Shown here: piece by piece, positions 26,473 to 57,676 of the stretch | Layout: each line of letters begins with the position of its first letter | Numbering within the stretch: position 1 is the stretch's first letter | Assembly: GCF_016722785.1 (NCBI RefSeq) | Contig: NZ_JAEQNE010000003.1 | Span: 1-64,000 of the forward strand | Reading direction: 5' to 3' | DNA length: 64,000 bases | Origin: Ramlibacter monticola | Lineage (GTDB): Bacteria > Pseudomonadota > Gammaproteobacteria > Burkholderiales > Burkholderiaceae_C | Program-made: the position numbers and the translations under genes | The notes under the pieces: model-generated | Told to the model about the DNA's origin: nothing | The model's database searches: none | Seen by the model: the letters and a program-made list of their open reading frames with translations, nothing else

Positions 26473-27381
26473 TCACTTGGCGGGCGAGGCCGGCGCGCCG
26501 CGGGCAGAGGAGAGGAGTTGCTGCACCAGCGGGTGGTGGATGCGACGCTCGGCGGAGATGAGGTGGAAGTGCTCCAGCACCTCGGGCGTGTCGCCGAGGA
26601 GGCGCATGCGCCGGTCCTGCAGCAGTTCCTCGTGCGACCAGCGCGAGGCGGGAAAGGCGCCCATGCCGCTGCGGCCGAAGGCGGCGAGCAGGGCGCTGTC
26701 CTCGAATTCGCCGGCGATGCGCGGGCGCAGGCCCTGGCGCTCGAACCACTGGTCCAGCCGCGCGCGCACGGCGGCATGGTGCGTGGGCAGCAGCAGCGGC
26801 AGTTCGCCCAGGCAGGCCGGGAAAGGCAGCTTGCACTTGCGCGCCACGTCGGCCGGCGCGAACCACGCCATGGAGGCCTCGCCCAGCGCGTGCCCGTAGA
26901 GCCGCAGGTTGGGATTGGGCGGGGCGGGGCGGTCGGACAGGACCGCATCGAGCTTGTGCAGTGCCAGGTCCGCCAGCAGCCGGTCGAATTCGTCCTCGTG
27001 GCATAGCAGGCGCACCCGCGGATCGTGCAGCACGGGCTGCAGCAGGTGCTTCACCACCAGCTTGGGCAGGCCGTCCGACATGCCCACGGCGAGCCGCAGC
27101 CCCTGGCCCGTCGCCGCGTCGCGCACTGCGGCCGGCAACTGCTCGCCGATCTGGAAGATCTGGTCGGCCTGCGTCATCGCGGCCACGCCGGCATCGGTGA
27201 GCGCGATCCCGCGTCCGGCCGGCTTGAACAGCGCATACCCCAGCGACTGCTCCAGCGCGCGCACCTGCGCGCTGACCGTCTGCACCGCCATGTCGAGGCG
27301 CTCGGCGGCGCGCGCCATGCCGCCTTCCTTGGCGACGACCCAGAAGTAGTACAGGTGGCGGTAGTTCAACGGCGTGGACAT
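26473..27381 (-). CDS. LysR-type regulator, NhaR-like
   Basis: A 302-residue LysR protein starting STPLNYRHLYYFWVVAKEGGMARAAERLDMAVQTVSAQVRALEQ, a close match to the NhaR N-terminus. The C-terminal effector domain is typical in length. NhaR activates Na+/H+ antiporter genes in response to sodium. No antiporter gene is in the window; the divergent gene encodes an MFS transporter, which may be its target here. Its stop lies 3 bp from the terC stop. Confidence 0.88.
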   Translation of the reverse strand: MSTPLNYRHLYYFWVVAKEGGMARAAERLDMAVQTVSAQVRALEQSLGYALFKPAGRGIALTDAGVAAMTQADQIFQIGEQLPAAVRDAATGQGLRLAVGMSDGLPKLVVKHLLQPVLHDPRVRLLCHEDEFDRLLADLALHKLDAVLSDRPAPPNPNLRLYGHALGEASMAWFAPADVARKCKLPFPACLGELPLLLPTHHAAVRARLDQWFERQGLRPRIAGEFEDSALLAAFGRSGMGAFPASRWSHEELLQDRRMRLLGDTPEVLEHFHLISAERRIHHPLVQQLLSSARGAPASPAK

Positions 27382-27478
27382 GGGCGCGAGTGTGCCTCCA
27401 CCGGCAACCGGCCCACGGGATCCCCGTGGCGAGTCCGGGACAGGCCGGCAGCCGACTCGCCGCTATGCTGTCCACTGC

Positions 27479-28678
27479 ATGGCCCGGTCGACCCATTTCC
27501 CCGCAGCCCCGCGCGGCAATTCGCTCTGGTCCGTCTTCCTTCCCCTGCTGCCCTTCATGCTGTCGGTGTTCGACGGCTTCCTGGCCATGGGCATGGCGCT
27601 GCCGGTGGTGCCCCGGCACCTGCACGACGCGCTGGGGCAGGGCACCGTGATGATCGGCGTCGTGATGGGCTGCCAGTACCTGTCCTCGATCTTCGGGCGG
27701 ATGTGGGCCGGCGGGCTGTCGGATGCGCGCGGGCCGCGCCGGGCCGCGCTGCTGGGGCTGGCAGCCGCCTGCGGCGTCGGGGGGCTCTATCTCGCGTCGG
27801 CGTCGTTCCTGGAATCCTCGCCCTCCCTCTCGCTGGGCCTCGTGATGGCCGGCCGCCTGCTCACCGGCATCGCGGAGAGCTTCCTGATCACGGGCACCAT
27901 GGCCTGGGCGCTGTCGCGCGTTAGCACGGCGCATGCCGGCAAGGTGTTCGGCTGGATCGGGGTGGCCCTGTTCGGCGGGCTCGCCGCCGGGGCGCCGCTC
28001 GGCACGGCCTTGCAGGCGGCGTTCGGTTTCGCGGGCGTGGGCTGCGCCGTGCTGCTCGCGGGCACGATCGGACTGGTGGGCACGAGCTTCATCGTCGGCG
28101 CCCCGCCCAGCCTTCACGCGCGGCTGCCCTTCTTCGACGTCGTGAACGCGTTGAAGCTGCCGGGGCTCGGCCTCACGCTGTGCTGCGTGGGCTACGCGAT
28201 GATCAACACCTTCGCCGTGCTGCTGTTCGTGCAGCGCGGATGGGAAGGCGGCGCGCTGGCGCTCACCAGCATGGGATCGGGCTTCATCCTGGCGCGGCTG
28301 CTGGTGGGCCACCTGCCGGACCTGGTCGGCGGCGCCCGCGTGGCCTTGTACTGCGTGCTGGCGGAGGCCCTCGGCCTGGCCCTGATCTGGGCCGCTCCGC
28401 ATCCGGCGATCGCGTGGCTGGGCGCGGCGCTCACCGGCGCGGGCTACGGCATCGGCTTCCAGGGCTTCGGGGTCGAAGCGGTGAAGCGTTCGCCCCCGCA
28501 GAGCCGCGGCGCGGCCATGGGGGCCTACGTGATGTTCCAGGACGTGACCATGGGGCTGGCGCCGCCGCTCAACGGCATGCTGGCCAAGGTCGCGGGGCTG
28601 GATGCCGTGTTCCTCGGCGGTGCCGTCGGCGCGCTCGGTGCCGCGCTCGTCGCCTGGACCATCCTGCGCCAGGACTAG
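27479..28678 (+). CDS. MFS transporter
   Basis: A 399-residue permease with 12 predicted helices, beginning FLPLLPFMLSVFDGFLAMGMALPVVPRHLHDAL. The cytoplasmic loop motif between helices 2 and 3 reads GRMWAGGLSDARGPRRAALLG, the usual MFS signature. It looks like small-molecule or drug transporters of the YhhS kind; the substrate is unknown. The ATG at 27479 is used because upstream residues lack hydrophobic character; a TATGCT box lies about 15 bp before it. Divergent from nhaR-like. Confidence 0.9.
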   Translation: MARSTHFPAAPRGNSLWSVFLPLLPFMLSVFDGFLAMGMALPVVPRHLHDALGQGTVMIGVVMGCQYLSSIFGRMWAGGLSDARGPRRAALLGLAAACGVGGLYLASASFLESSPSLSLGLVMAGRLLTGIAESFLITGTMAWALSRVSTAHAGKVFGWIGVALFGGLAAGAPLGTALQAAFGFAGVGCAVLLAGTIGLVGTSFIVGAPPSLHARLPFFDVVNALKLPGLGLTLCCVGYAMINTFAVLLFVQRGWEGGALALTSMGSGFILARLLVGHLPDLVGGARVALYCVLAEALGLALIWAAPHPAIAWLGAALTGAGYGIGFQGFGVEAVKRSPPQSRGAAMGAYVMFQDVTMGLAPPLNGMLAKVAGLDAVFLGGAVGALGAALVAWTILRQD

Positions 28679-28750
28679 CCGCGCGAACCGGGCGGTCGCG
28701 CAGGGACTCTCTTTCGAAGTGTTACGTCGGCCGGCGGTCGCCGCGGGCCG

Positions 28751-28945
28751 TCACTTGACCGGCGCCTGCTGCAGCGCCGCGACCGGCTTCTTCGCATCGG
28801 CTGCCGGCACGACCTTGGCGAGCACGAACACGACCCCGATCACCGCCGCCAGGGCCAGCGCGATCCACCGGGCCCCGAGGCCCCGCGGCTCCGGCGGCAC
28901 GAAACCGCGCGTGCGGTCTTCCTGGTCTTCGCCTGCGTCCTTCAT
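28751..28945 (-). CDS. Small single-span membrane protein
   Basis: A 64-residue protein with a charged N-terminus (DAGEDQEDRTRGFVPPEPRG), one membrane span (WIALALAAVIGVVFVLAKVV) and a short tail. GGAGGG lies before the ATG at 28945. I do not recognise a family. It is convergent with the MFS gene and borders the origin-like region. Confidence 0.65.
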   Translation of the reverse strand: MKDAGEDQEDRTRGFVPPEPRGLGARWIALALAAVIGVVFVLAKVVPAADAKKPVAALQQAPVK

Positions 28946-29391
28946 GCCTGCCCTCCCTCGACTTCCTTGGGGCGGATTATGGGGAGGCGGCACGCCCGGA
29001 ATGCAAGTGCGGGGCCTCGCCGCGTCGTCTCGCCGCCACACGAAAGGGCGCAGGAAAATTTTTTTTGGGCCGAAAAGCCTGTGGACCGATCCGGCACAAC
29101 CTCAGCGTTATCCACACCGGCGGACCGAACCGGCAGGTTGTCCAAGTTCGCGGTACAGGTCGGAAGCAGGGGTGCCCACAGTCCTCTCCCGTTCGCAGGT
29201 CCTTGTCGGAGAAAGGGAAAAAGACGGTTGTCCACAGCGGGGCGGGGGCCTTATCTACTACGACTACCTTTGAGCAATGGATTCAATAGAAGTCCGGGGG
29301 AACCGCAAGGCAGTACCGGCGACCGGGGGGCTTGAGTCCTTGCCCGCATGGCGTAGAGTCCGCCCCTTCACGTTGGACGGAGGGGTGGTCG
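28946..29391. other. 446-bp gene-free interval
   Basis: No frame in this interval has protein-like character. Most of it is taken up by the origin-like cluster (29053-29270). At its right end, TTGAGT (29332-29337) and TAGAGT (29354-29359), spaced 16 bp apart, could serve as the promoter of the NnrU-like gene. Confidence 0.6.
29053..29270. other. oriC: Candidate replication origin (DnaA boxes plus DnaA-trio-like repeat)
   Basis: A gene-free stretch carries a perfect DnaA box TTATCCACA (29108-29116), a one-mismatch box TTGTCCACA (29228-29236), and weaker boxes at 29080-29088, 29138-29146 and 29172-29180. An A4T8 tract is at about 29056-29067. The 29228 box is followed by a GC-rich spacer and then CTACTACGACTA (29255-29266), a triplet repeat in the orientation of the DnaA-trio of basal origin unwinding systems. 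dnaA is not adjacent. The partition genes and parS sites lie about 23-28 kb to the right, as expected near an origin. Confidence 0.5.
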
Positions 29392-29976
29392 ATGCTCACG
29401 CTGGTTGCGGGATTGGTGCTGTTTCTCGGCGCCCATTCGGTGCGCGTGTTCGCGGACGGCTGGCGTACGTCGACCATTGCCAGGGTGGGCGAGAAACCCT
29501 GGAAGGGCGTGTACTCGCTGGTCTCGCTCGCCGGCTTCGTGCTGCTGGTCGTCGGCTACGGGCTGGCCCGCCAGCAACCGGTCGTCCTGTGGAGCCCGCC
29601 GCCCGTGGGGCTGCGGCACCTGGCTTCGCTGCTGACGCTGGTCGCGTTCGTGCTGGTGGTGGCCGCCTACCTTCCCGGCAATCAGCTGAAGGCGAAGCTG
29701 CACCACCCGATGATCCTCGGCGTGAAGGCCTGGGCGCTGGCGCACCTGCTGGCCAACAACATGCTCGCCGACCTGGTGCTGTTCGGATCCTTCCTCGCGT
29801 GGGCGGTGCTGGACTACCGGGCGGCGCGCCAGCGCGATCGCCAGCGGGGCACAGTCTATCCGCCGGGGACGGCGTCCCGCACCGCGCTCACGGTGGTGGC
29901 AGGCGTCGTGGCGTGGGCGGCGTTCGCGTTCTGGGCGCACCGGGTGCTGATCGGGGTGAGTCCGATGGGGGTTTGA
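29392..29976 (+). CDS. NnrU family membrane protein
   Basis: A 194-residue membrane protein with about five to six helices. The family blocks are LVLFLGAHSVRVFADGWR, GEKPWKGVYSLVSLAGFVLLVVGYG, and LKAKLHHPMILGVKAWALAHLLANNMLADLVLFGSFLAW. NnrU proteins were first linked to nitric-oxide/nitrite metabolism and resemble isoprenoid-type methyltransferase-fold membrane proteins; the true reaction is not settled. A -35/-10 pair lies about 35-60 bp upstream. It stands next to the origin-like region. Confidence 0.88.
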   Translation: MLTLVAGLVLFLGAHSVRVFADGWRTSTIARVGEKPWKGVYSLVSLAGFVLLVVGYGLARQQPVVLWSPPPVGLRHLASLLTLVAFVLVVAAYLPGNQLKAKLHHPMILGVKAWALAHLLANNMLADLVLFGSFLAWAVLDYRAARQRDRQRGTVYPPGTASRTALTVVAGVVAWAAFAFWAHRVLIGVSPMGV

Positions 29977-32634: not shown

Positions 32635-32898
32635 GCGTGTGACTTCCGGCAGCTCGATCTTCACCTCCAGCACCTCGAGGTTGTCCGTGCGTTCCACGTT
32701 GACCTTGAGGTGGTTGGGGTCGATCTTCACGTACTTGCTGATCACCGCGACCAGATCGCGCTGCAGGGCCGGCAGGTAGTCGGGGGAGCCCCCCGGATTG
32801 CGGCCGCTGCGCTCGTGCGCCAGGATGATCTGCAGGCGCTCCTTGGCGACGCTGGCCGAGCGCTTCTTCTCCCCGAGCAGGAAGGACAGCAGGCTCAT
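32632..32898 (-). CDS. minE: Cell division topological specificity factor MinE
   Basis: An 88-residue MinE of normal length: membrane-targeting and anti-MinCD N-terminus ([31 protein letters not shown]), followed by the dimerisation domain ([44 protein letters not shown]). It drives pole-to-pole oscillation of MinD. Its ATG overlaps the minD stop (ATGA). Confidence 0.98.
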
Positions 32899-33716
32899 GC
32901 CTTCCTCCCGCCGAACAGGCGCTTCAGGAAGCCCGCCTTCTCGGGGTCGACGAAGCGCAGCGGCCGGTCCTCGCCCTGGAAGCGGGCGACGACGTCGAGG
33001 TAGGCCTCGCTGACGTCCGTGCCCTTCAGGTGGACGGCCGGGGTGCCCTGGTTGCTGGCCTGCAGCACCGATTCGGATTCCGGGATCACGCCGATGAGCG
33101 GGATGCGCAGGATGTCCTGGATGTCCTCCAGCGACAGCATGTGGCCGGCGTCCACGCGGTTCGGGTTGTAGCGGGTGATCAGCAGGTGTTCCTTGACCGG
33201 CTCCTTGCCCTCGATCGCGCGGCGGGTCTTGCTGGCCAGCATGCCGAGGATGCGGTCGGAGTCGCGCACCGAGGAGACCTCGGGGTTGGTCACCACCAAG
33301 GCCTCGTCGGCGAAGTGCATGGCCATCAGGGCACCGGTCTCGATGCCGGCGGGCGAGTCGCAGACGATGTACTCGAAGCCCATGCCGCCCAGGTCGTGCA
33401 GCACCTTCTCGACGCCTTCGCGGGTCAGGGCTTCCTTGTCGCGGGTCTGGCTGGCGGCCAGCACCGAGAGGTTGTCGTTGTGCTTGTCCTTGATCAGGGC
33501 CTGGTTGAGGGTGGCCTCGCCGTGGATCACGTTGACGAAGTCGTAGACCACGCGCCGCTCGCAGCCCATGATCAGGTCCAGGTTGCGCAGGCCGACGTCG
33601 AAGTCGATGACGGCGGTCTTGTGGCCGCGCAGGGCCAGGCCGCTGGCGAAGCTGGCGCTGGTGGTGGTCTTGCCGACCCCACCCTTGCCGGATGTGACGA
33701 CGATGATCTTTGCCAT
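32895..33716 (-). CDS. minD: Septum site-determining ATPase MinD
   Basis: A 273-residue ParA/MinD-type ATPase. The deviant Walker [11 protein letters not shown] is at residues 9-18, switch regions [16 protein letters not shown] and [14 protein letters not shown] follow, and the C-terminal amphipathic membrane-binding helix is [11 protein letters not shown]. It recruits MinC to the membrane to block off-centre division. It lies 11 bp after minC and overlaps minE by four bases. Confidence 0.98.
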
Positions 33717-33727
33717 TGGGGAGTCCT

Positions 33728-34462
33728 TTACGGGTTCAGCGGCTGCATGACCAGCTTCTCGCCCTCGAGGCGGATCTGGGCCGGCTTGCCGCGCAGTGTG
33801 TCGGGCAGCGGGTGTTCGCTGGTGCGGTACACGCCGGCGATGGAGACCAGCTCGGGCTCCAGGCACAGCGTCAGGATGCGGGCTTCCGCATCGCCGCGTG
33901 CGCCGGCAATGGCTTTGCCGCGCAGCGGTGCATAGACGTGGATGTGGCCATCGGCGATGACCTCCGCGCCGGGATTGACCATTGCGAGCACCACGACGTC
34001 GCGCCCGCGGGCGTAGACCTGCTGGCCGGAGCGCAGGGGTTTGTCGATGATGAGTGCACTCGTGGGGACTTGCGGCGCCGCGACGGGCACGGGGGCCACC
34101 GGCTGTTCCTCCCTCTGGGAGGGGGCCGGGGTGAGGGCAGCATCCTGCGCACCGGCCAGACCGGCTTGCAGCGCGGCCTCCATCTGCGCCTGCGTCCCCC
34201 CTTTCACCGCCACCGGCACGACGCGATAGCGCCTCAGCAGCGCAATCAGCCGCCCGAAGTCGATCTCCCCCTCGCCCACGGGCGCCAGGTCGATCACCAT
34301 CGGATCGTTGTCGAAGAACTCCGGGATCTCCCCGAACCGGCCTTCCAGTTCCTGTTCCAGCGATTGGAGGTCGGAAGACTTCAGCAGCAGCGCGACGAGG
34401 GGAAGGTTCGCGCTCTTGATCTCGAACGTGGCAGGAGTGCGTCCTGCGAGGGCAACAGTCAT
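33728..34462 (-). CDS. minC: Septum site-determining inhibitor MinC
   Basis: A 244-residue MinC with the N-terminal FtsZ-inhibitory domain ([19 protein letters not shown] to [13 protein letters not shown]) and the C-terminal beta-helix ([57 protein letters not shown]). The linker contains [10 protein letters not shown], encoded by a palindromic repeat (34108-34140 region) of the type that elsewhere lies between genes. The repeat seems to have inserted in frame in the linker without harming either domain. Confidence 0.97.
34108..34139. repeat. Palindromic repeat inserted in the minC linker
   Basis: CCTCCC-TCT-GGGAGG followed by GGGCCGGGGTGAGGG. This is the well-known style of intergenic repeat in GC-rich proteobacteria, whose translation reads LTPAPSQRE-like. 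It lies in the variable linker between the two MinC domains. Confidence 0.5.
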
Positions 34463-51682: not shown

Positions 51683-51951
51683 CGTCACGCTCTCCATGCT
51701 GGGTTGCGCGCCCGGCGCGGGCAGGGCTGCGCCGACCGGAGCGACCGCACCACACTACCTCCGCTCCGACGGCCTGCCGGCAGGCCCTTCGAATGAGGGC
51801 GTGTACTTACTTGTCCGACAAGCCCAGGCATGCGCACCCGCCGTCCCGGGCTCATTTCGCCCGCCCGCGGCGCTGCCTCCCCGCCGCCCGTAAAATCTCC
51901 CCCTTCCTCCATTGGCCCTCGTGCCCCTGCGCCCGGATCGGCGCCCCTCCC

Positions 51952-53904
51952 ATGCTTTACCCCGAAGAATTCGACGTCACCGTCGTCGGTGGCGGTCACG
52001 CCGGCACCGAAGCGGCCCTCGCCTCCGCGCGCATGGGCTGCAGGACCCTGCTGCTCACCCACAACATCGAGACGCTCGGCCACATGAGCTGCAACCCGTC
52101 GATCGGCGGGATCGGCAAGGGCCACCTGGTCAAGGAAGTCGACGCACTGGGCGGCGCGATGGCGATCGCCACCGACGAGGCGGGCATCCAGTTCCGCATC
52201 CTCAACTCGAGCAAGGGCCCGGCCGTGCGCGCGACCCGGGCCCAGGCCGACCGCGTCCTGTACAAGGCGGCGATCCGCGGCCGGCTGGAGAACCAGCCGA
52301 ACCTGACGCTGTTCCAGCAGGCCGTCGACGACCTGATGGTGGAAGGCGATCGCGTGGTGGGGGCGGTGACGCAGATCGGGATCCGCTTCCGCGGCCGCGC
52401 CGTGGTGCTGACCGCAGGCACCTTCCTGGACGGAAAGATCCACGTCGGGCTGGAGAACTACGCTGCCGGCCGGGCAGGGGATCCGCCGGCCGTGTCGCTG
52501 TCCGCGCGCCTCAAGGAGCTGAAGCTGCCGCAGGGCCGCCTGAAGACCGGAACCCCGCCGCGGATCGACGGTCGGTCGATCGACTTCAGCCGTTGCGAGG
52601 AGCAGCCGGGCGACCTGGATCCGGTGCCGGTGTTCAGCTTCATGGGCCGGGCCGCTATGCATCCCCGCCAGGTGCCCTGCTGGATCACCCACACCAACGA
52701 GCGCACCCACGCGATCATCCGTTCCGGCTTCGACCGCAGTCCGATGTTCACCGGGCGGATCGAGGGCGTCGGCCCGCGCTACTGCCCCAGCGTCGAGGAC
52801 AAGATCAACCGGTTCAAGGACAAGGACAGCCACCAGGTCTTCCTGGAGCCGGAGGGCCTGACGACCAACGAGTTCTATCCCAACGGGATCTCGACCAGCC
52901 TGCCGTTCGACATCCAGCTCGGGCTGGTGCGCACGCTGCCGGGCCTGGAGAACGCGCACATCCTGCGACCCGGCTACGCCATCGAGTACGACTACTTCGA
53001 TCCGCGCGGCCTGAAGTCCTCGTTCGAGACTCGCGCCATCGCCGGCCTCTTCTTCGCCGGGCAGATCAACGGCACCACCGGCTATGAGGAGGCGGCAGCG
53101 CAAGGCCTGTTCGCCGGGATCAACGCCGCGCTGCAGGTCAAGGGCGAGGGCGCCTGGGTGCCGTCGCGTGACCAGGCCTACCTCGGCGTGCTGGTGGACG
53201 ATCTCATCACCAAGGGCGTGACCGAGCCGTATCGGATGTTCACCAGCCGGGCGGAGTACCGGCTGCAGCTCCGGGAGGACAACGCCGATCTGCGGCTGAC
53301 CGAGGACGGCCGGCGGATGGGCCTGGTGGGTGATGCCCAATGGGACGCGTTCTGCCGCAAGCGCGATGCTGTTTCACGTGAAACAGAGCGGCTGAAGTCG
53401 ACCTGGGTGAACCCCCGGATCCTGTCGGCCGCCGAGGCGCAGCGCGTGCTGGGGACGGGGATCGACCACGAGTACAACCTGGGGGATTTGCTGCGTCGGC
53501 CCGACGTGGGCTACGAAGCGCTGATGGGCATGGAGGGCGGCCGTTGGAGCGGCGATGCTGTTTCACGTGAAACACTGGGCGAGCTCTATGCGCCGGTGGT
53601 GGAGCAGATCGAGATCGGCGCCAAGTACGCCGGCTACATCGAGCGGCAGAAGGACGAAGTCGAGCGGGCGGCGTACTACGAGAACCTCAAGCTGCCGGCC
53701 GACCTGGATTACATGCAGGTGGCCGCGCTGAGCATCGAGGTGCGGCAGAAGCTGAGCAAGCACCGGCCGGAAACGCTGGGGCTGGCCTCGCGAATCTCGG
53801 GCGTGACGCCGGCGGCGATCTCGCTGCTGCTGGTTCACCTGAAGAAGAACAAATTCAAGGGCTTCGTGGACGCCGCGAACCAAGCCGGGCAGGCGGCCGC
53901 ATGA
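51952..53904 (+). CDS. mnmG: tRNA uridine 5-carboxymethylaminomethyl modification enzyme MnmG (GidA)
   Basis: A 650-residue FAD enzyme. The dinucleotide-binding motif [12 protein letters not shown] is at residues 10-21, and family signatures [22 protein letters not shown] and [16 protein letters not shown] are present. With MnmE it modifies the wobble uridine of several tRNAs. Two perfect parS sites lie inside the gene (53370-53385, 53559-53574). Both are read in the same frame, so the protein contains DAVSRET twice. First gene of the mnmG-rsmG-lysE-parA-parB cluster. Confidence 0.98.
53370..53385. other. parS: parS site 1 (inside mnmG)
   Basis: TGTTTCACGTGAAACA is an exact 16-bp match to the consensus chromosomal parS bound by ParB. 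It lies within mnmG, about 3.4 kb upstream of parB, and is translated as part of DAVSRET. Confidence 0.93.
53559..53574. other. parS: parS site 2 (inside mnmG)
   Basis: A second exact TGTTTCACGTGAAACA, 189 bp after the first and in the same reading frame, again preceded by GATGC and encoding DAVSRET. Two consensus sites in one coding sequence indicate selection for ParB binding. Confidence 0.93.
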
Positions 53905-53925
53905 GGACTCCCTTTCCGTCTCCCT

Positions 53926-54021
53926 CCCCCTTGAGGGGAAGGGTCGGGGCGGGCACGCTCCCCGCCTCGACCGATCGCGGTGCCTGCCTCACTCCAGCCC
54001 TCTCCCGGGAAGGGGAGGGGG
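53926..54021. repeat. Pair of Pu/Py-rich palindromic repeats between mnmG and rsmG
   Basis: A CCCC-TTGA-GGGG palindrome with flanking GGGTCGGGGCGGG, then a partner CCCTCTCCCGGGAAGGGGAGGGGG about 70 bp on. The same style of repeat appears at 30449 and inside minC. Possible REP-like element; a terminator function is not evident. Confidence 0.5.
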
Positions 54022-54028
54022 TCAAACC

Positions 54029-54709
54029 ATGAGCACATCGCAACAGGAAGGTCGGCTGCGCTCTGCCGTGGAGGCCCTAGCTCTCCAGGTGGACGCGGCC
54101 CGACAAGCCAAGCTCCTCACCTACCTCGACCTGCTGGCCAAGTGGAACAAGGTCTACAACCTCACGGCCGTGCGCGACGCGGACGAAATGCTGGTGCAGC
54201 ACCTCTTCGACAGTCTGGCCGTGCTCCAGCCGCTGCGCGCCCAGACGCAGGGCAGGCCGGTGCGCCTGCTCGATGTCGGCTCGGGTGCCGGATTGCCGGG
54301 TGTCGTGATCGCGGTCTGCTGCCCGGAGATCCAGGTGGAATGCGTGGACACGGTCGGCAAGAAGGCCGCCTTCATCCAGCAGGCGGCCGCCCAACTGCAG
54401 TTGCCCAACCTTCGCGGCGTGCACGACCGGGTCGAGCACCTGTCCGGCCAGTACGACGTGATCAGTTCCCGCGCCTTCGCTTCGCTGCCGGATTTCGTCG
54501 CGTGGTCCGAGCACGCGCTGACGCAGAAGGGGGTCTGGATGGCGATGAAGGGCAAGCGCCCGGATGCCGAAGCCGCGGAGCTCCCGCCTGGGGCGGAAGT
54601 GTTCCACGTGGAACAGTTGCAGGTTCCCGAACTCGCCGCGGAGCGCTGCATCGTGTGGATGCGCAAGCGTCCGCGTGAGGAAAGCACTACAGGTCCCACC
54701 GGGGCCTGA
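54029..54709 (+). CDS. rsmG: 16S rRNA (guanine(527)-N7)-methyltransferase RsmG
   Basis: A 226-residue Rossmann methyltransferase. Key blocks: LLAKWNKVYNLTAVRD, HLFDSLAVL, SAM site LLDVGSGAGLPGVVIAV, VDTVGKKAAFIQQAA, and SRAFASLPDFV. It makes m7G527 in 16S rRNA. A parS-like variant (54600-54615) lies near its 3' end and encodes EVFHVEQL. It follows mnmG, the usual order near betaproteobacterial partition genes. Confidence 0.97.
   Translation: MSTSQQEGRLRSAVEALALQVDAARQAKLLTYLDLLAKWNKVYNLTAVRDADEMLVQHLFDSLAVLQPLRAQTQGRPVRLLDVGSGAGLPGVVIAVCCPEIQVECVDTVGKKAAFIQQAAAQLQLPNLRGVHDRVEHLSGQYDVISSRAFASLPDFVAWSEHALTQKGVWMAMKGKRPDAEAAELPPGAEVFHVEQLQVPELAAERCIVWMRKRPREESTTGPTGA
54600..54615. other. parS-like site (inside rsmG)
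   Basis: TGTTCCACGTGGAACA is a perfect 16-bp palindrome that differs from consensus parS at two symmetrical bases. It fits the looser pattern GTTNCACGTGNAAC seen for Burkholderiales ParB sites. It lies 1.0 kb after parS site 2 and 0.75 kb before parA. Confidence 0.7.
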
Positions 54710-54739: not shown

Positions 54740-55354
54740 ATGCTCGGCGTTGCAGACTACGGCGCGTTCGTCGCCGCGATCCTGGTTTTCCTGGCCATCC
54801 CCGGCCCGGGAAACCTCGCGCTGATCACTTCGACCAGCAAAGGCGGAATCGCCGGCGGCCTGGGCGCCACGCTCGGCATCATCGTCGGCGACCAGGTGCT
54901 CATGTGGGCTGCCGTCGCTGGCGTGGCCGCGCTGCTGCTGGCTTCGCCCGCCGCCTTTGGTATTGTCCAGTGGGCGGGCGCCGCCTACCTCGCCTGGCTG
55001 GGCCTGCGCATGCTCATCGCCAAGCCCGGCGCCAAGCCCATCCTGAACATCGAGCCGCGCCACTATTTCCGGCAGGCGGCCTTCATCACCCTCTTGAATC
55101 CCAAGGCCATCGTCTTCTACATGGCCTTCTTCCCGCTGTTCGTCGACCCGGCGCGTCACCAGGGCCTGCTGACCTTCGGCGTGATGGCCGCGACCATCGC
55201 GGTGCTGACCTTCGCGTACGGCCTGGGTGCGGTGCTGCTCACGCACTTCTTGGCCGAGCGCATGCGCGCCAACCCGGCGATCGGGCGCGTGCTGGAGAAG
55301 TTTGCCGGTTGCTGTCTGATCGGCTTCGGGGTGAAGCTGGCGGTGTCTCGCTGA
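54740..55354 (+). CDS. LysE/RhtB family amino acid exporter
   Basis: A 204-residue, six-helix exporter: FLAIPGPGNLALITSTSKGGIAGGLGATLGIIVGD is the LysE signature, and FITLLNPKAIVFYMAFFPLFV is the second conserved block. It exports amino acids or derivatives. It sits between rsmG and parA, with 30 bp and 11 bp spacings, and is presumably co-transcribed with them. Confidence 0.93.
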   Translation: MLGVADYGAFVAAILVFLAIPGPGNLALITSTSKGGIAGGLGATLGIIVGDQVLMWAAVAGVAALLLASPAAFGIVQWAGAAYLAWLGLRMLIAKPGAKPILNIEPRHYFRQAAFITLLNPKAIVFYMAFFPLFVDPARHQGLLTFGVMAATIAVLTFAYGLGAVLLTHFLAERMRANPAIGRVLEKFAGCCLIGFGVKLAVSR

Positions 55355-55365
55355 ATACAAGAACG

Positions 55366-56175
55366 ATGGCCAAGATCTTTTGCGTCGCCAACCAGAAGGG
55401 CGGGGTTGGCAAGACGACCACGACGGTGAATCTATCGGCAGGCCTGGCCAAGGTGGGCCAGCGCGTGCTGATGGTGGACCTGGACCCGCAGGGCAATGCC
55501 ACGATGGGCTCGGGTGTCGACAAGCGCCGGCTGGAGCTCTCGGTCTACGACGTGCTGCTGGAGTCCGCCTCCATCGCCGAGGCGAAGGTGCGCAGCGAGC
55601 GCCTCGTCGCGGCGGGCTGCGCCTACGACGTCCTCGGCGCCAACCGCGACCTCGCCGGCGCCGAGGTGGAACTGGTCAACCAGGAGCGGCGCGAGCGCCG
55701 GCTCAAGGAAGCCCTGGCCAGCGTCACGGGCGACTACGACTTCGTGCTGATCGACTGCCCGCCGTCGCTGTCGATGCTCACCCTCAACGGCCTGTGCGCC
55801 GCGCACGGCGTGATCGTGCCGATGCAGTGCGAGTACTTCGCGCTGGAGGGCCTGTCCGACCTGGTCAACACGATCAAGCAGGTGCACGCCAACCTGAACA
55901 AGGACCTGGAGATCATCGGCCTGCTGCGCGTGATGTTCGACCCGCGCATCACCTTGCAGCAGCAGGTGAGCGACCAGCTCAAGGCGCATTTCGGCGAGAA
56001 GGTGTTCGACACGGTGATCCCGCGCAACGTGCGCCTGGCGGAGGCCCCCAGCTACGGGCTGCCCGGCGTGGCCTTCGATCCCTCCGCGCGCGGCAGCCAC
56101 GCCTTCGTCGACTTCGCCCACGAAATGGTCACGCGCCTCGGCGGCATGAGGCCCGCGGTGCCGCATGTTGCTTGA
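55366..56175 (+). CDS. parA: Chromosome partitioning ATPase ParA (Soj)
   Basis: A 269-residue ParA. Walker [11 protein letters not shown] is at residues 10-19, the Walker A' LMVDLDPQGNATMGSG and Walker B-type FVLIDCPPSLSMLTLN follow, and PRNVRLAEAPSYGLP is near the end. It has no N-terminal HTH, so it is a chromosomal type Ib-like ParA. It works with ParB and parS to segregate origins. A small hydrolase gene separates it from parB, a conserved order in this bacterial group. Confidence 0.97.
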   Translation: MAKIFCVANQKGGVGKTTTTVNLSAGLAKVGQRVLMVDLDPQGNATMGSGVDKRRLELSVYDVLLESASIAEAKVRSERLVAAGCAYDVLGANRDLAGAEVELVNQERRERRLKEALASVTGDYDFVLIDCPPSLSMLTLNGLCAAHGVIVPMQCEYFALEGLSDLVNTIKQVHANLNKDLEIIGLLRVMFDPRITLQQQVSDQLKAHFGEKVFDTVIPRNVRLAEAPSYGLPGVAFDPSARGSHAFVDFAHEMVTRLGGMRPAVPHVA

Positions 56176-56201
56176 ACAATCTGCTCTGGAATAGATAGCA
56201 C

Positions 56202-56741
56202 GTGAAGGCGCGCAACGTCCTGGTGCTGCCCGGCTGGGAAGGAAGCGGCCCCAGGCACTGGCAGACCCTGTGGGAAGAGCGCCATGGCTACCGGCGCGTC
56301 GAGCAGCACGACTGGCTGCGGCCGCTGCGCGGCGACTGGGTCGCGCGGCTGGAGGACGTGGTCCTGTCCTGCGGCGAACCCGCGGTGCTGGTGGCGCACA
56401 GCCTGGGCTGCATCCTGGTGGCGGCCTGGGCCGCGCATTCGCGCAACACGCATCGCGTGAAGGGGGCGCTGCTGGTGGCGCCCGGCGACGTCGAGCGCAC
56501 CGAGGTGCGCGAGCTGCTGCCCTCGTGGTCGCCCATCGAGCTGCGCGCGCTTCCGTTCCCCAGCGTGCTGCTCGCCAGCCGCGACGATCCCTACTGCGCC
56601 TTCGAGCGCGCGCGCCTGTTCGCGCACGCGTGGAACGCGCAGTTCATGGACTACGGCGACTGCGGGCACATCAACGCGGACTCGGGGCTGGCGAGCTGGC
56701 CCGAAGGACACGTCCTGCTGCAGGACCTGATGAAAGACTGA
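56202..56741 (+). CDS. RBBP9/YdeN family alpha/beta hydrolase
   Basis: A 179-residue serine hydrolase: LPGWEGSGPRHWQTLWEERHG (family start), VAHSLGCILVAAWAA with the nucleophile serine, ASRDDPYC aspartate, and DCGHINADSG histidine. The substrate is unknown. It starts with GTG at 56202. It lies between parA and parB and is translated with them (parB ATG is 2 bp after its stop). Confidence 0.92.
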   Translation: MKARNVLVLPGWEGSGPRHWQTLWEERHGYRRVEQHDWLRPLRGDWVARLEDVVLSCGEPAVLVAHSLGCILVAAWAAHSRNTHRVKGALLVAPGDVERTEVRELLPSWSPIELRALPFPSVLLASRDDPYCAFERARLFAHAWNAQFMDYGDCGHINADSGLASWPEGHVLLQDLMKD

Positions 56742-56743
56742 AG

Positions 56744-57676
56744 ATGGTGACGAAGAAACCCAAGGGCCTCGGCCGCGGCCTCGAGGCGCTGCTCGGGCCC
56801 AAGGTGGCGGAAGAGGGCGCGACGCCTCCCGGCGGCGACACGACCGGCAGCAACGTCGGCACGCCGATGTCGATGCGGCTCGAGGACATGGTGCCCGGCA
56901 TGTACCAGCCGCGCACGCGCATGGACGAGGGCGCCTTGTACGAGCTCGCCGAGTCGATCAAGGCGCAGGGCATCATGCAGCCGATCCTCGTGCGCCGGCT
57001 CACCGACGGCGAAAACACCGGCAGGTACGAGATCATCGCCGGCGAGCGCCGCTTCCGCGCGGCGCGGCTCGCCGGGCTGGACAGCGTGCCGGTGCTGGTG
57101 CGCGACGTGCCCAACGAGGCCGCCGCGGCGATGGCGCTGATCGAGAACATCCAGCGCGAGGACCTCAACCCGCTGGAGGAGGCGCAGGGCCTGCAGCGCC
57201 TGATCAAGGACTTCGGCCTCACGCACGAACAGGCGGCCCAGGCCGTAGGTCGTTCGCGCAGCGCCGCGTCCAACCTGCTGCGCCTGCTCAACCTGGCCGA
57301 CCCGGTGCAGACGATGCTGATGGCGGGCGATATCGACATGGGCCACGCGCGCGCACTGCTCGCGCTGGAACGCGCGGCGCAGATCACCGCGGCCAACCAG
57401 ATCGCGCAGCGCAAGCTGTCGGTGCGCGAGGCCGAGAGCCTGGTCAAGAGGATCGGCGCCGAGTTCAGCCTGGTCTCGCCCAAGCCGAAGAAGGAGAAGT
57501 CGCGCGACCTGCGGCGCGTCGAGGAGGAGCTCTCCGACCTGCTTACGGCCGAGGTGGAAGTGCGCGTGAAGAAACGCGTGAAGCGGCACGGCCGCATCGA
57601 GGAGATGGGTGAGATCTCGATCTCCTTCGGTTCGCTCGACGAGCTCAACGGGCTGATCGACCGCCTGCGCGCCTGA
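56744..57676 (+). CDS. parB: Chromosome partitioning protein ParB
   Basis: A 310-residue ParB. N-terminal ParA-interacting start KKPKGLGRGLEALLG; CTPase/ParB box with the ERRFRA motif (IIAGERRFRAARLAGL); helix-turn-helix LTHEQAAQAVGRSRSAASNLLRLLNL; and C-terminal dimerisation region. ParB binds parS and spreads as a CTP-dependent clamp. Cognate parS sites lie in mnmG upstream. A GC-rich palindromic repeat follows the stop. Confidence 0.97.
   Translation: MVTKKPKGLGRGLEALLGPKVAEEGATPPGGDTTGSNVGTPMSMRLEDMVPGMYQPRTRMDEGALYELAESIKAQGIMQPILVRRLTDGENTGRYEIIAGERRFRAARLAGLDSVPVLVRDVPNEAAAAMALIENIQREDLNPLEEAQGLQRLIKDFGLTHEQAAQAVGRSRSAASNLLRLLNLADPVQTMLMAGDIDMGHARALLALERAAQITAANQIAQRKLSVREAESLVKRIGAEFSLVSPKPKKEKSRDLRRVEEELSDLLTAEVEVRVKKRVKRHGRIEEMGEISISFGSLDELNGLIDRLRA

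Follow-up and report, generated by a model that had tools for sequence, protein, structure and literature searches.

A DnaA-box module between an MFS transporter gene and nnrU

The window analyzed here opens a 644-kb contig (C13), covering its first 64 kb, in a draft Ramlibacter assembly of 19 contigs and 6.14 Mb. At 29055–29270 on the plus strand it contains a candidate displaced oriC module, whose conserved core occupies 195 positions (29075–29270). The module is intergenic, between a small minus-strand ORF (28751–28948; no Pfam match) and nnrU on its right (29392–29976, plus strand; Pfam NnrU); past the small ORF, the left neighbor is an MFS transporter gene (27374–28678, plus strand; Pfam MFS_1). 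The first-pass annotation had remarked on nearby min and par genes, and of these we recognized minC by Pfam and minD by eye (32895–34462, minus strand; 3.6–5.2 kb from the module), as well as parS and parAB (24–28 kb from the module). The three parS sites (53370, 53559, and 54600; 53370–54615) are perfect matches 24–25 kb to the right of the module, and a genome search allowing one mismatch detected no other parS. Directly past them, at 54904–57676 on the plus strand, are the ORFs that hold parA (domain in 54904–56175; Pfam AAA_31) and parB (56270–57676; Pfam ParB families). gidA/mnmG (51946–53904, plus strand; Pfam GIDA) is the far boundary of the interval that holds most of the displaced modules examined.

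We found no dnaA or dnaN near the module, in line with what had been noted before: dnaA-dnaN-gyrB occupy a stretch 6–12 kb into a different contig (C19), with rpmH, identified by eye, on the other side. Provided that the contigs are correct, the module is at least 38 kb from dnaN (at least 29 kb on C13 plus at least 9 kb on C19). Synteny with three relatives (G025, G027, and G029) suggests that the starts of C13 and C19 adjoin. The rpmH-dnaA gap of the same genome (L004:12065–12123) holds two DnaA boxes, TTATCCACA and TAATCCACA, which probably serve dnaA autoregulation. Much of the DNA from gyrB to the module is unmatched between species (L004:1–6000 and the dnaN-module intervals of G025, G027, and G029), as in an insertion hotspot, and in the window's genome this interval includes a 909-aa ORF with a P-loop-like motif seen by eye. 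Further along C13 (164001–184000; L216), 20 kb have a GC content of 39% versus about 65–72% in other stretches, a probable foreign island.

We described the parts of the module by sequence and by their conservation (modal fraction) across 18 displaced modules. An A/T tract at the 5′ edge (29055–29066), defined by sequence and alignment, is shared by the displaced modules of the window's clade (modal fraction 0.68 over 29053–29074). A weak inverted DnaA box (29080–29088, minus strand; 2 mismatches) follows within the block AAGCCTGTGGAgCGtTCCGGCAC; the modal fraction of block 29075–29097 is 0.94. The remaining boxes are all on the plus strand. The perfect DnaA box TTATCCACA (29108–29116), where the consensus is TTaTCCACA, is surrounded by a segment (29098–29120) of mean modal fraction 0.74, and two weak boxes with two mismatches each come after it, TTGTCCAAG (29138–29146; GTTGTCC conserved) and GTGCCCACA (29172–29180; CACAG conserved). 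The plus-strand segment CGCAaGTgCtTGa...AAA (29186–29227; mean modal fraction 0.70) aligns with the dnaN-proximal segment of dnaA-dnaN origins and is possibly a copied dnaN promoter; a sigma-70 consensus was sought there and none was found. The last box, TTGTCCACA (29228–29236; modal fraction 0.98), adjoins the predicted unwinding region; a plus-strand GC-rich spacer of 18 nt, GCGGGGCGGGGGCCTTAT (29237–29254), leads to the first CTA of a DnaA-trio-like repeat, CTACTACGACTA (29255–29266, plus strand; modal fraction 0.94), read as CTA CTA CGA CTA. CGA is the most frequent third triplet among the 18 displaced modules, and the 18-nt spacing is found again in many relatives (34-nt pattern matches). 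The inverted block, the last box, and the triplets thus reach modal fractions of 0.94–0.98 versus 0.55 in the flanks, i.e., the displaced module is conserved where its flanks vary. All features listed in the first-pass annotation (the perfect box, a further box, weaker boxes, the A/T tract, and CTA triplets after the last box across a GC-rich spacer) are present where it had put them.

An Rfam search over 28600–29500 returned no match. We also considered the A/T tract as an intrinsic terminator, which is unsupported in the window's genome (fold z 0.02; zero hits in a terminator scan). Among three relatives folded, L016 has a T run at the module's 5′ edge (~1480–1505) directly after a GC-rich hairpin, resembling an intrinsic terminator, L011 folded otherwise, and the L008 stretch excluded the T run.

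Chance does not account for the module. TTRTCCACA occurs at 19 sites in 6.14 Mb (11 for a reversed control pattern), and the two zero-mismatch boxes of the module, 120 bp apart, are the sole pair within 250 bp among the matches listed. Sixty first-order Markov simulations of the window produced neither box pairs within 250 bp nor box-plus-trio modules. The box/GC-rich/CTA-triplet pattern has a single match genome-wide (none for a control pattern), and no second module was found in this genome by pattern or homology search. The module is well beyond chance expectation, and it has the form expected of an oriC, an intergenic DnaA-box cluster adjoining a candidate melting region.

The order DnaA box, GC-rich DNA, CTA triplets is also that of the basal unwinding system (BUS) of Bacillus subtilis and other bacteria, a likeness already pointed out in the first-pass annotation. 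The BUS search rules, as excerpted from their source (PMC8287927), ask for a box with at most two mismatches no more than 16 nt from the first trio and, on the bound strand, for an unbroken run of three or more NAN trios. By these excerpted rules the module, with 18 nt from TTGTCCACA to the first CTA and three of four trios fitting, two of them consecutive (the third, CGA, fails), keeps the order and misses two numeric limits of the search program; four consecutive fitting triplets are found in several relatives (e.g., L012, L022, and L027). By analogy, the module would work like the BUS, yet it is not classed as one by the published rules.

Homologous elements at the dnaA-dnaN gap and elsewhere

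To compare this interval with relatives, as had been proposed, we searched 61 genomes with the module DNA and obtained matches in 30: the genome itself, 29 of the 36 other Ramlibacter, and none of the 24 from other families of the order; one of the 29 (G028/L034) is not the module. The dnaA-dnaN gap was readable in 46 of 60 genus genomes (dnaN was below threshold in 10 and partial in 4, which were excluded), and in 22 of the 46 it holds the same 195-position element, downstream of dnaA and ahead of the dnaN start. Conservation is strong, and the core matches positions 1–195 of a profile at 154.3 bits, the profile having been built from 56 modules that include the window's own. The module is homologous over its full 195 positions to the dnaA-dnaN element of relatives, and these elements we infer to be active origins.

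We scored a copy as intact when it reached at least 90 bits and spanned at least 180 model positions, thresholds set for this analysis. The model had been trained on most of the modules scored; its training set excluded G016, G069, the remnants, and the second copy of G082. Intact copies are in the gap only in 21 of the 46 genomes, displaced only in 22, in both places in one (G082), and scored in neither place in two (G074, with no displaced module found, and G076, with a displaced pattern match), a near-complete complementarity. For the 21 gap-only genomes, the lack of a displaced copy is defined by a strict pattern that misses some variants, including the gap copies of G006, G028, G069, and G080.

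The gaps of the 22 displaced-only genomes retain graded remnants of the element: 42.8 bits in G007, 41.5 in G063, 38.5 in G024, 33.8 in G009, 32.7 in G018, 24.6 in G034, 13.8 in G061, and 13.0 in the window's genome, with less than 10 bits in eight others and no match in six. The remnant in the window's genome is weak taken alone (E = 0.04). The stronger remnants span model positions within about 90–189, on the dnaN side, which would fit a retained dnaN leader or promoter. Because the genome's own gap holds only a weak remnant and the module is conserved over its full length, the site beside dnaN, not the module, reads as the relic.

Displaced copies occupy several sites. In 15 genomes with the module and dnaN on one contig, the displaced element is 4.3–78 kb from dnaN. 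It is near nnrU in the window's clade, G025, G027, G029, G008, and G007. In G063 and G075 it separates minC from the gene next to it, both orientations being represented, and it lies 0.7–2.2 kb upstream of gidA in G009, G024, and the second copy of G082. The G018 module lies between gyrB and a Tim44-like gene, and that of G081 beside the lysR 3′ end. The genome of G082, complete on a single contig, has two full modules (C1:2357459–2357651 and 2386131–2386327; L297 and L299) 28.5 kb apart, one at dnaA-dnaN and the other 1.5 kb upstream of gidA. Tandem copies are present in G002, G024, and G061. In G064 and G030 a spacer separates a full module from dnaN, and in G064 a decayed 3′ piece lies beside dnaN.

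Beyond the genus, we surveyed 300 genomes of the family that are at least 95% complete, a set drawn from more. The strict pattern is present in 112 of the 300 and a reversed control pattern in at least 13, and chance may account for a few of the strict matches. We examined 80 of the 112 among the matches listed, a set that is biased by its selection by pattern. Where dnaN was on the same contig (51 of the 80), six modules were within 600 bp of dnaN and 45 were displaced, at a median of 57 kb (range 6–260 kb); where gidA was on that contig too (43), the module lay between dnaN and gidA in 33 and outside in 10. Of 113 named-record stretches, likewise selected by pattern and not an unbiased sample, 98 have a full module and 15 do not, some being cut at a contig end. 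Of the 98, 35 are at dnaA/dnaN. A further 21 have min within 3 kb, 16 have nnrU within that distance, and three are near both, which leaves 23 elsewhere. G087 (C1:40085, 49285, and 69353) and other family genomes show two or three box-plus-triplet modules per region, and 23 of the 80 examined genomes have more than one module start; origins with several modules may be frequent across the family. The gidA matches of G239, G366, G284, and G304 have in-frame stop codons, which may reflect either true damage or errors in the sequencing.

Strand asymmetry around the module

We first considered raw GC skew, which changes sign in the window near 21 kb, 8 kb left of the module. In stretches from nine genomes, the cumulative skew minimum is 16–46 kb left of dnaN in six, which include both origin types and some minima at the stretch edge, and in the dnaN-module interval in three. 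As an origin test, raw skew is uninformative: it has no clean switch and tracks gene orientation, because, on either arm, third positions of the coding strand are rich in C.

We replaced it with an orientation-corrected third-position strand component, with genes picked by a crude ORF rule. This component is +0.048 (95% CI 0.033–0.061) over the 40 kb to the right of the displaced module and −0.008 (−0.032 to 0.015) between dnaN and the module. Left of dnaA it is +0.006, about zero and not negative (+0.052 in G029). The right side exceeds the middle in all six displaced genomes, which are related to one another (G025 is the sister of the window's genome) and among which the window's own row uses the assumed C13–C19 join; the difference is narrow in G081 (0.031 versus 0.021). 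Three genomes with the gap position have +0.017 on the right and +0.016 on the left, with no step in any of the three. The far arms carry almost no signal. The corrected asymmetry favors the displaced module, rather than dnaA, as the switch point. Where the first-pass annotation had set a skew origin elsewhere, together with missing conservation, against an origin at this site, we found strong conservation, an uninformative raw skew, and a corrected asymmetry that rises at the module.

Gene direction counts against the module. Genes from dnaN to the module, dnaN and gyrB included, are mostly on the plus strand (75 kb versus 38 kb); with the origin at the module, most of them would run counter to the fork. 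In G081, the strand carrying KOPS-like octamers switches between samples at 2.0 and 2.3 Mb of 4.07 Mb, a polarity that an origin near position 0 would predict. On C19, there are seven on the plus and 16 on the minus strand, opposite to the prediction from the assumed contig order. We rejected KOPS polarity as a fine locator, given this result and that points 20 kb apart are inseparable by it.

Probable origin identity and proposed history of relocation

We suggest that the module is very probably the active chromosomal oriC of this Ramlibacter. A displaced origin, a relic, and a titration site had all been entertained from the outset, and homology, conservation, and the remnant in the genome's own gap best support the first. 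The parS sites 24–25 kb away, the corrected asymmetry, and the KOPS polarity of G081 also count in its favor. By analogy with the published basal unwinding system, from which the biochemical steps are taken, DnaA would bind the TTATCCACA and TTGTCCACA boxes, helped by the weaker boxes; a DnaA filament would then span the GC-rich spacer, reach the strand with the CTA triplets, and melt it, and the helicase would be loaded at the melted strand.

The origin likely moved by duplication, after which the old copy decayed. Ancestrally in the genus, it would have been in the dnaA-dnaN gap, from which the element would have been copied into the dnaN-gidA interval, in the window's genome between the MFS gene and nnrU; both copies would have coexisted for a time before the old one decayed, save for a fragment beside dnaN. 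Homology, placement, remnants, one dual-copy genome, and the complementarity of intact copies are seen in the sequences, and for each lineage we infer duplication before loss.

How often this happened was approached with a dnaA+dnaN tree of 54 rows. Basal lineages of the genus, like the outgroup, have the gap position; the outgroup is no test of polarity because its rows were picked for having the gap position, whereas the remnants do test it. The window's genome falls in a 15-row clade (100/100), all displaced. The best tree requires at least six state changes (bootstrap range 5–6), with G074, where no module was found anywhere, counted as displaced. A module tree (193 columns) is weakly resolved and gives at least three changes. 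We rejected a single relocation event on the count from the gene tree, though only two changes, as a minimum, are forced by well-supported branches. We lean towards a history in which the origin changed its address several times within the genus, the whole module being copied within the dnaN-nnrU-min-gidA interval, passing through a two-origin stage, and the old copy then decaying.

The strongest competitor also takes the module to be the origin, but as an old displaced position kept beside the gap copy in a dual-origin ancestor, with lineage-specific losses instead of repeated moves. G082, with both copies intact, fits this history, as do the wide occurrence of displaced modules in the family and the displaced modules of G007 and G034, which the module tree joins to those of the window's clade (98/93) although both genomes fall outside it in the gene tree. 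Against it, displaced copies sit at several non-homologous places (nnrU, minC in both orientations, gidA, gyrB/Tim44-like, and lysR), and basal lineages of the genus have the dnaA-dnaN copy. We regard it as possible but the less likely account, and several independent moves as modestly preferable to one dual-origin ancestor with losses.

The datA and DARS loci of E. coli are DnaA-box clusters that titrate or reactivate DnaA without initiation. The module, a DnaA-box cluster away from dnaA, could be such a titration or timing site, with the true origin elsewhere, for instance still beside dnaA, and the two boxes in the rpmH-dnaA gap mean that DnaA may bind near dnaA too. Such a site would need neither the triplet repeat nor its spacing from the box, yet both are conserved; the module is the full-length counterpart of the relatives' dnaA-dnaN element, with intact copies replacing each other, and the genome's own gap has only a weak fragment, so we consider a titration site improbable. 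That the module is itself a decayed relic from which the origin has moved on, as its off-pattern third trio and over-long spacer might imply, is more improbable still, given that the same CGA and 18-nt spacing recur among relatives and that pattern and homology searches of the genome turned up no other module.

An active displaced origin at the module has a partial parallel in E. coli, where oriC is about 40 kb from dnaA: both are DnaA-box origins tens of kilobases from dnaA, in a dnaA-parAB-gidA region. In E. coli and other gammaproteobacteria oriC lies between gidA/mnmG and mioC, according to the excerpted source (PMC10225481), and the modules of G009, G024, and the second G082 copy are also upstream of gidA. 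The window's module differs in adjoining nnrU, in its homology to the dnaA-dnaN element that sister species carry, and in that several species keep remnants at the old site. Bacterial origins away from dnaA are already known, as excerpts of earlier reports state (PMC10225481, PMC6323995, PMC9584773, and PMC4403523), and one of these (PMC4403523) describes, in the part available, putative double or bipartite origins. The two modules of G082 and the tandem copies in G002, G024, and G061 resemble the latter as excerpted; unlike them, 43 of the 46 genus genomes scored have an intact module at just one of the two places, which points to transition states.

Our literature search found no paper on a Ramlibacter origin and, among the papers listed on Comamonadaceae origins and on origin relocation, no description of this case; DoriC may list individual displaced origins of the family. 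What is new is a natural series of origin states in one genus that includes remnants and an intermediate with two origins. To our knowledge, mainly end states have been available for learning how bacterial origins part from dnaA. In Ramlibacter, sister species have the origin at the old site or at one of several new ones, the remnants are graded, and one complete genome has both copies. If our reading is right, this is the same step that separated dnaA from oriC in other bacteria, with its intermediates visible, and species such as G082 are predicted to fire from two origins. Soil bacteria, some already in culture, here allow tests of the order of events, of how well two origins are tolerated, and of the apparent restriction to the dnaN-gidA/parABS zone. 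For the family, origin finders could put oriC in the wrong place if they depend on raw GC skew or on a neighboring dnaA.
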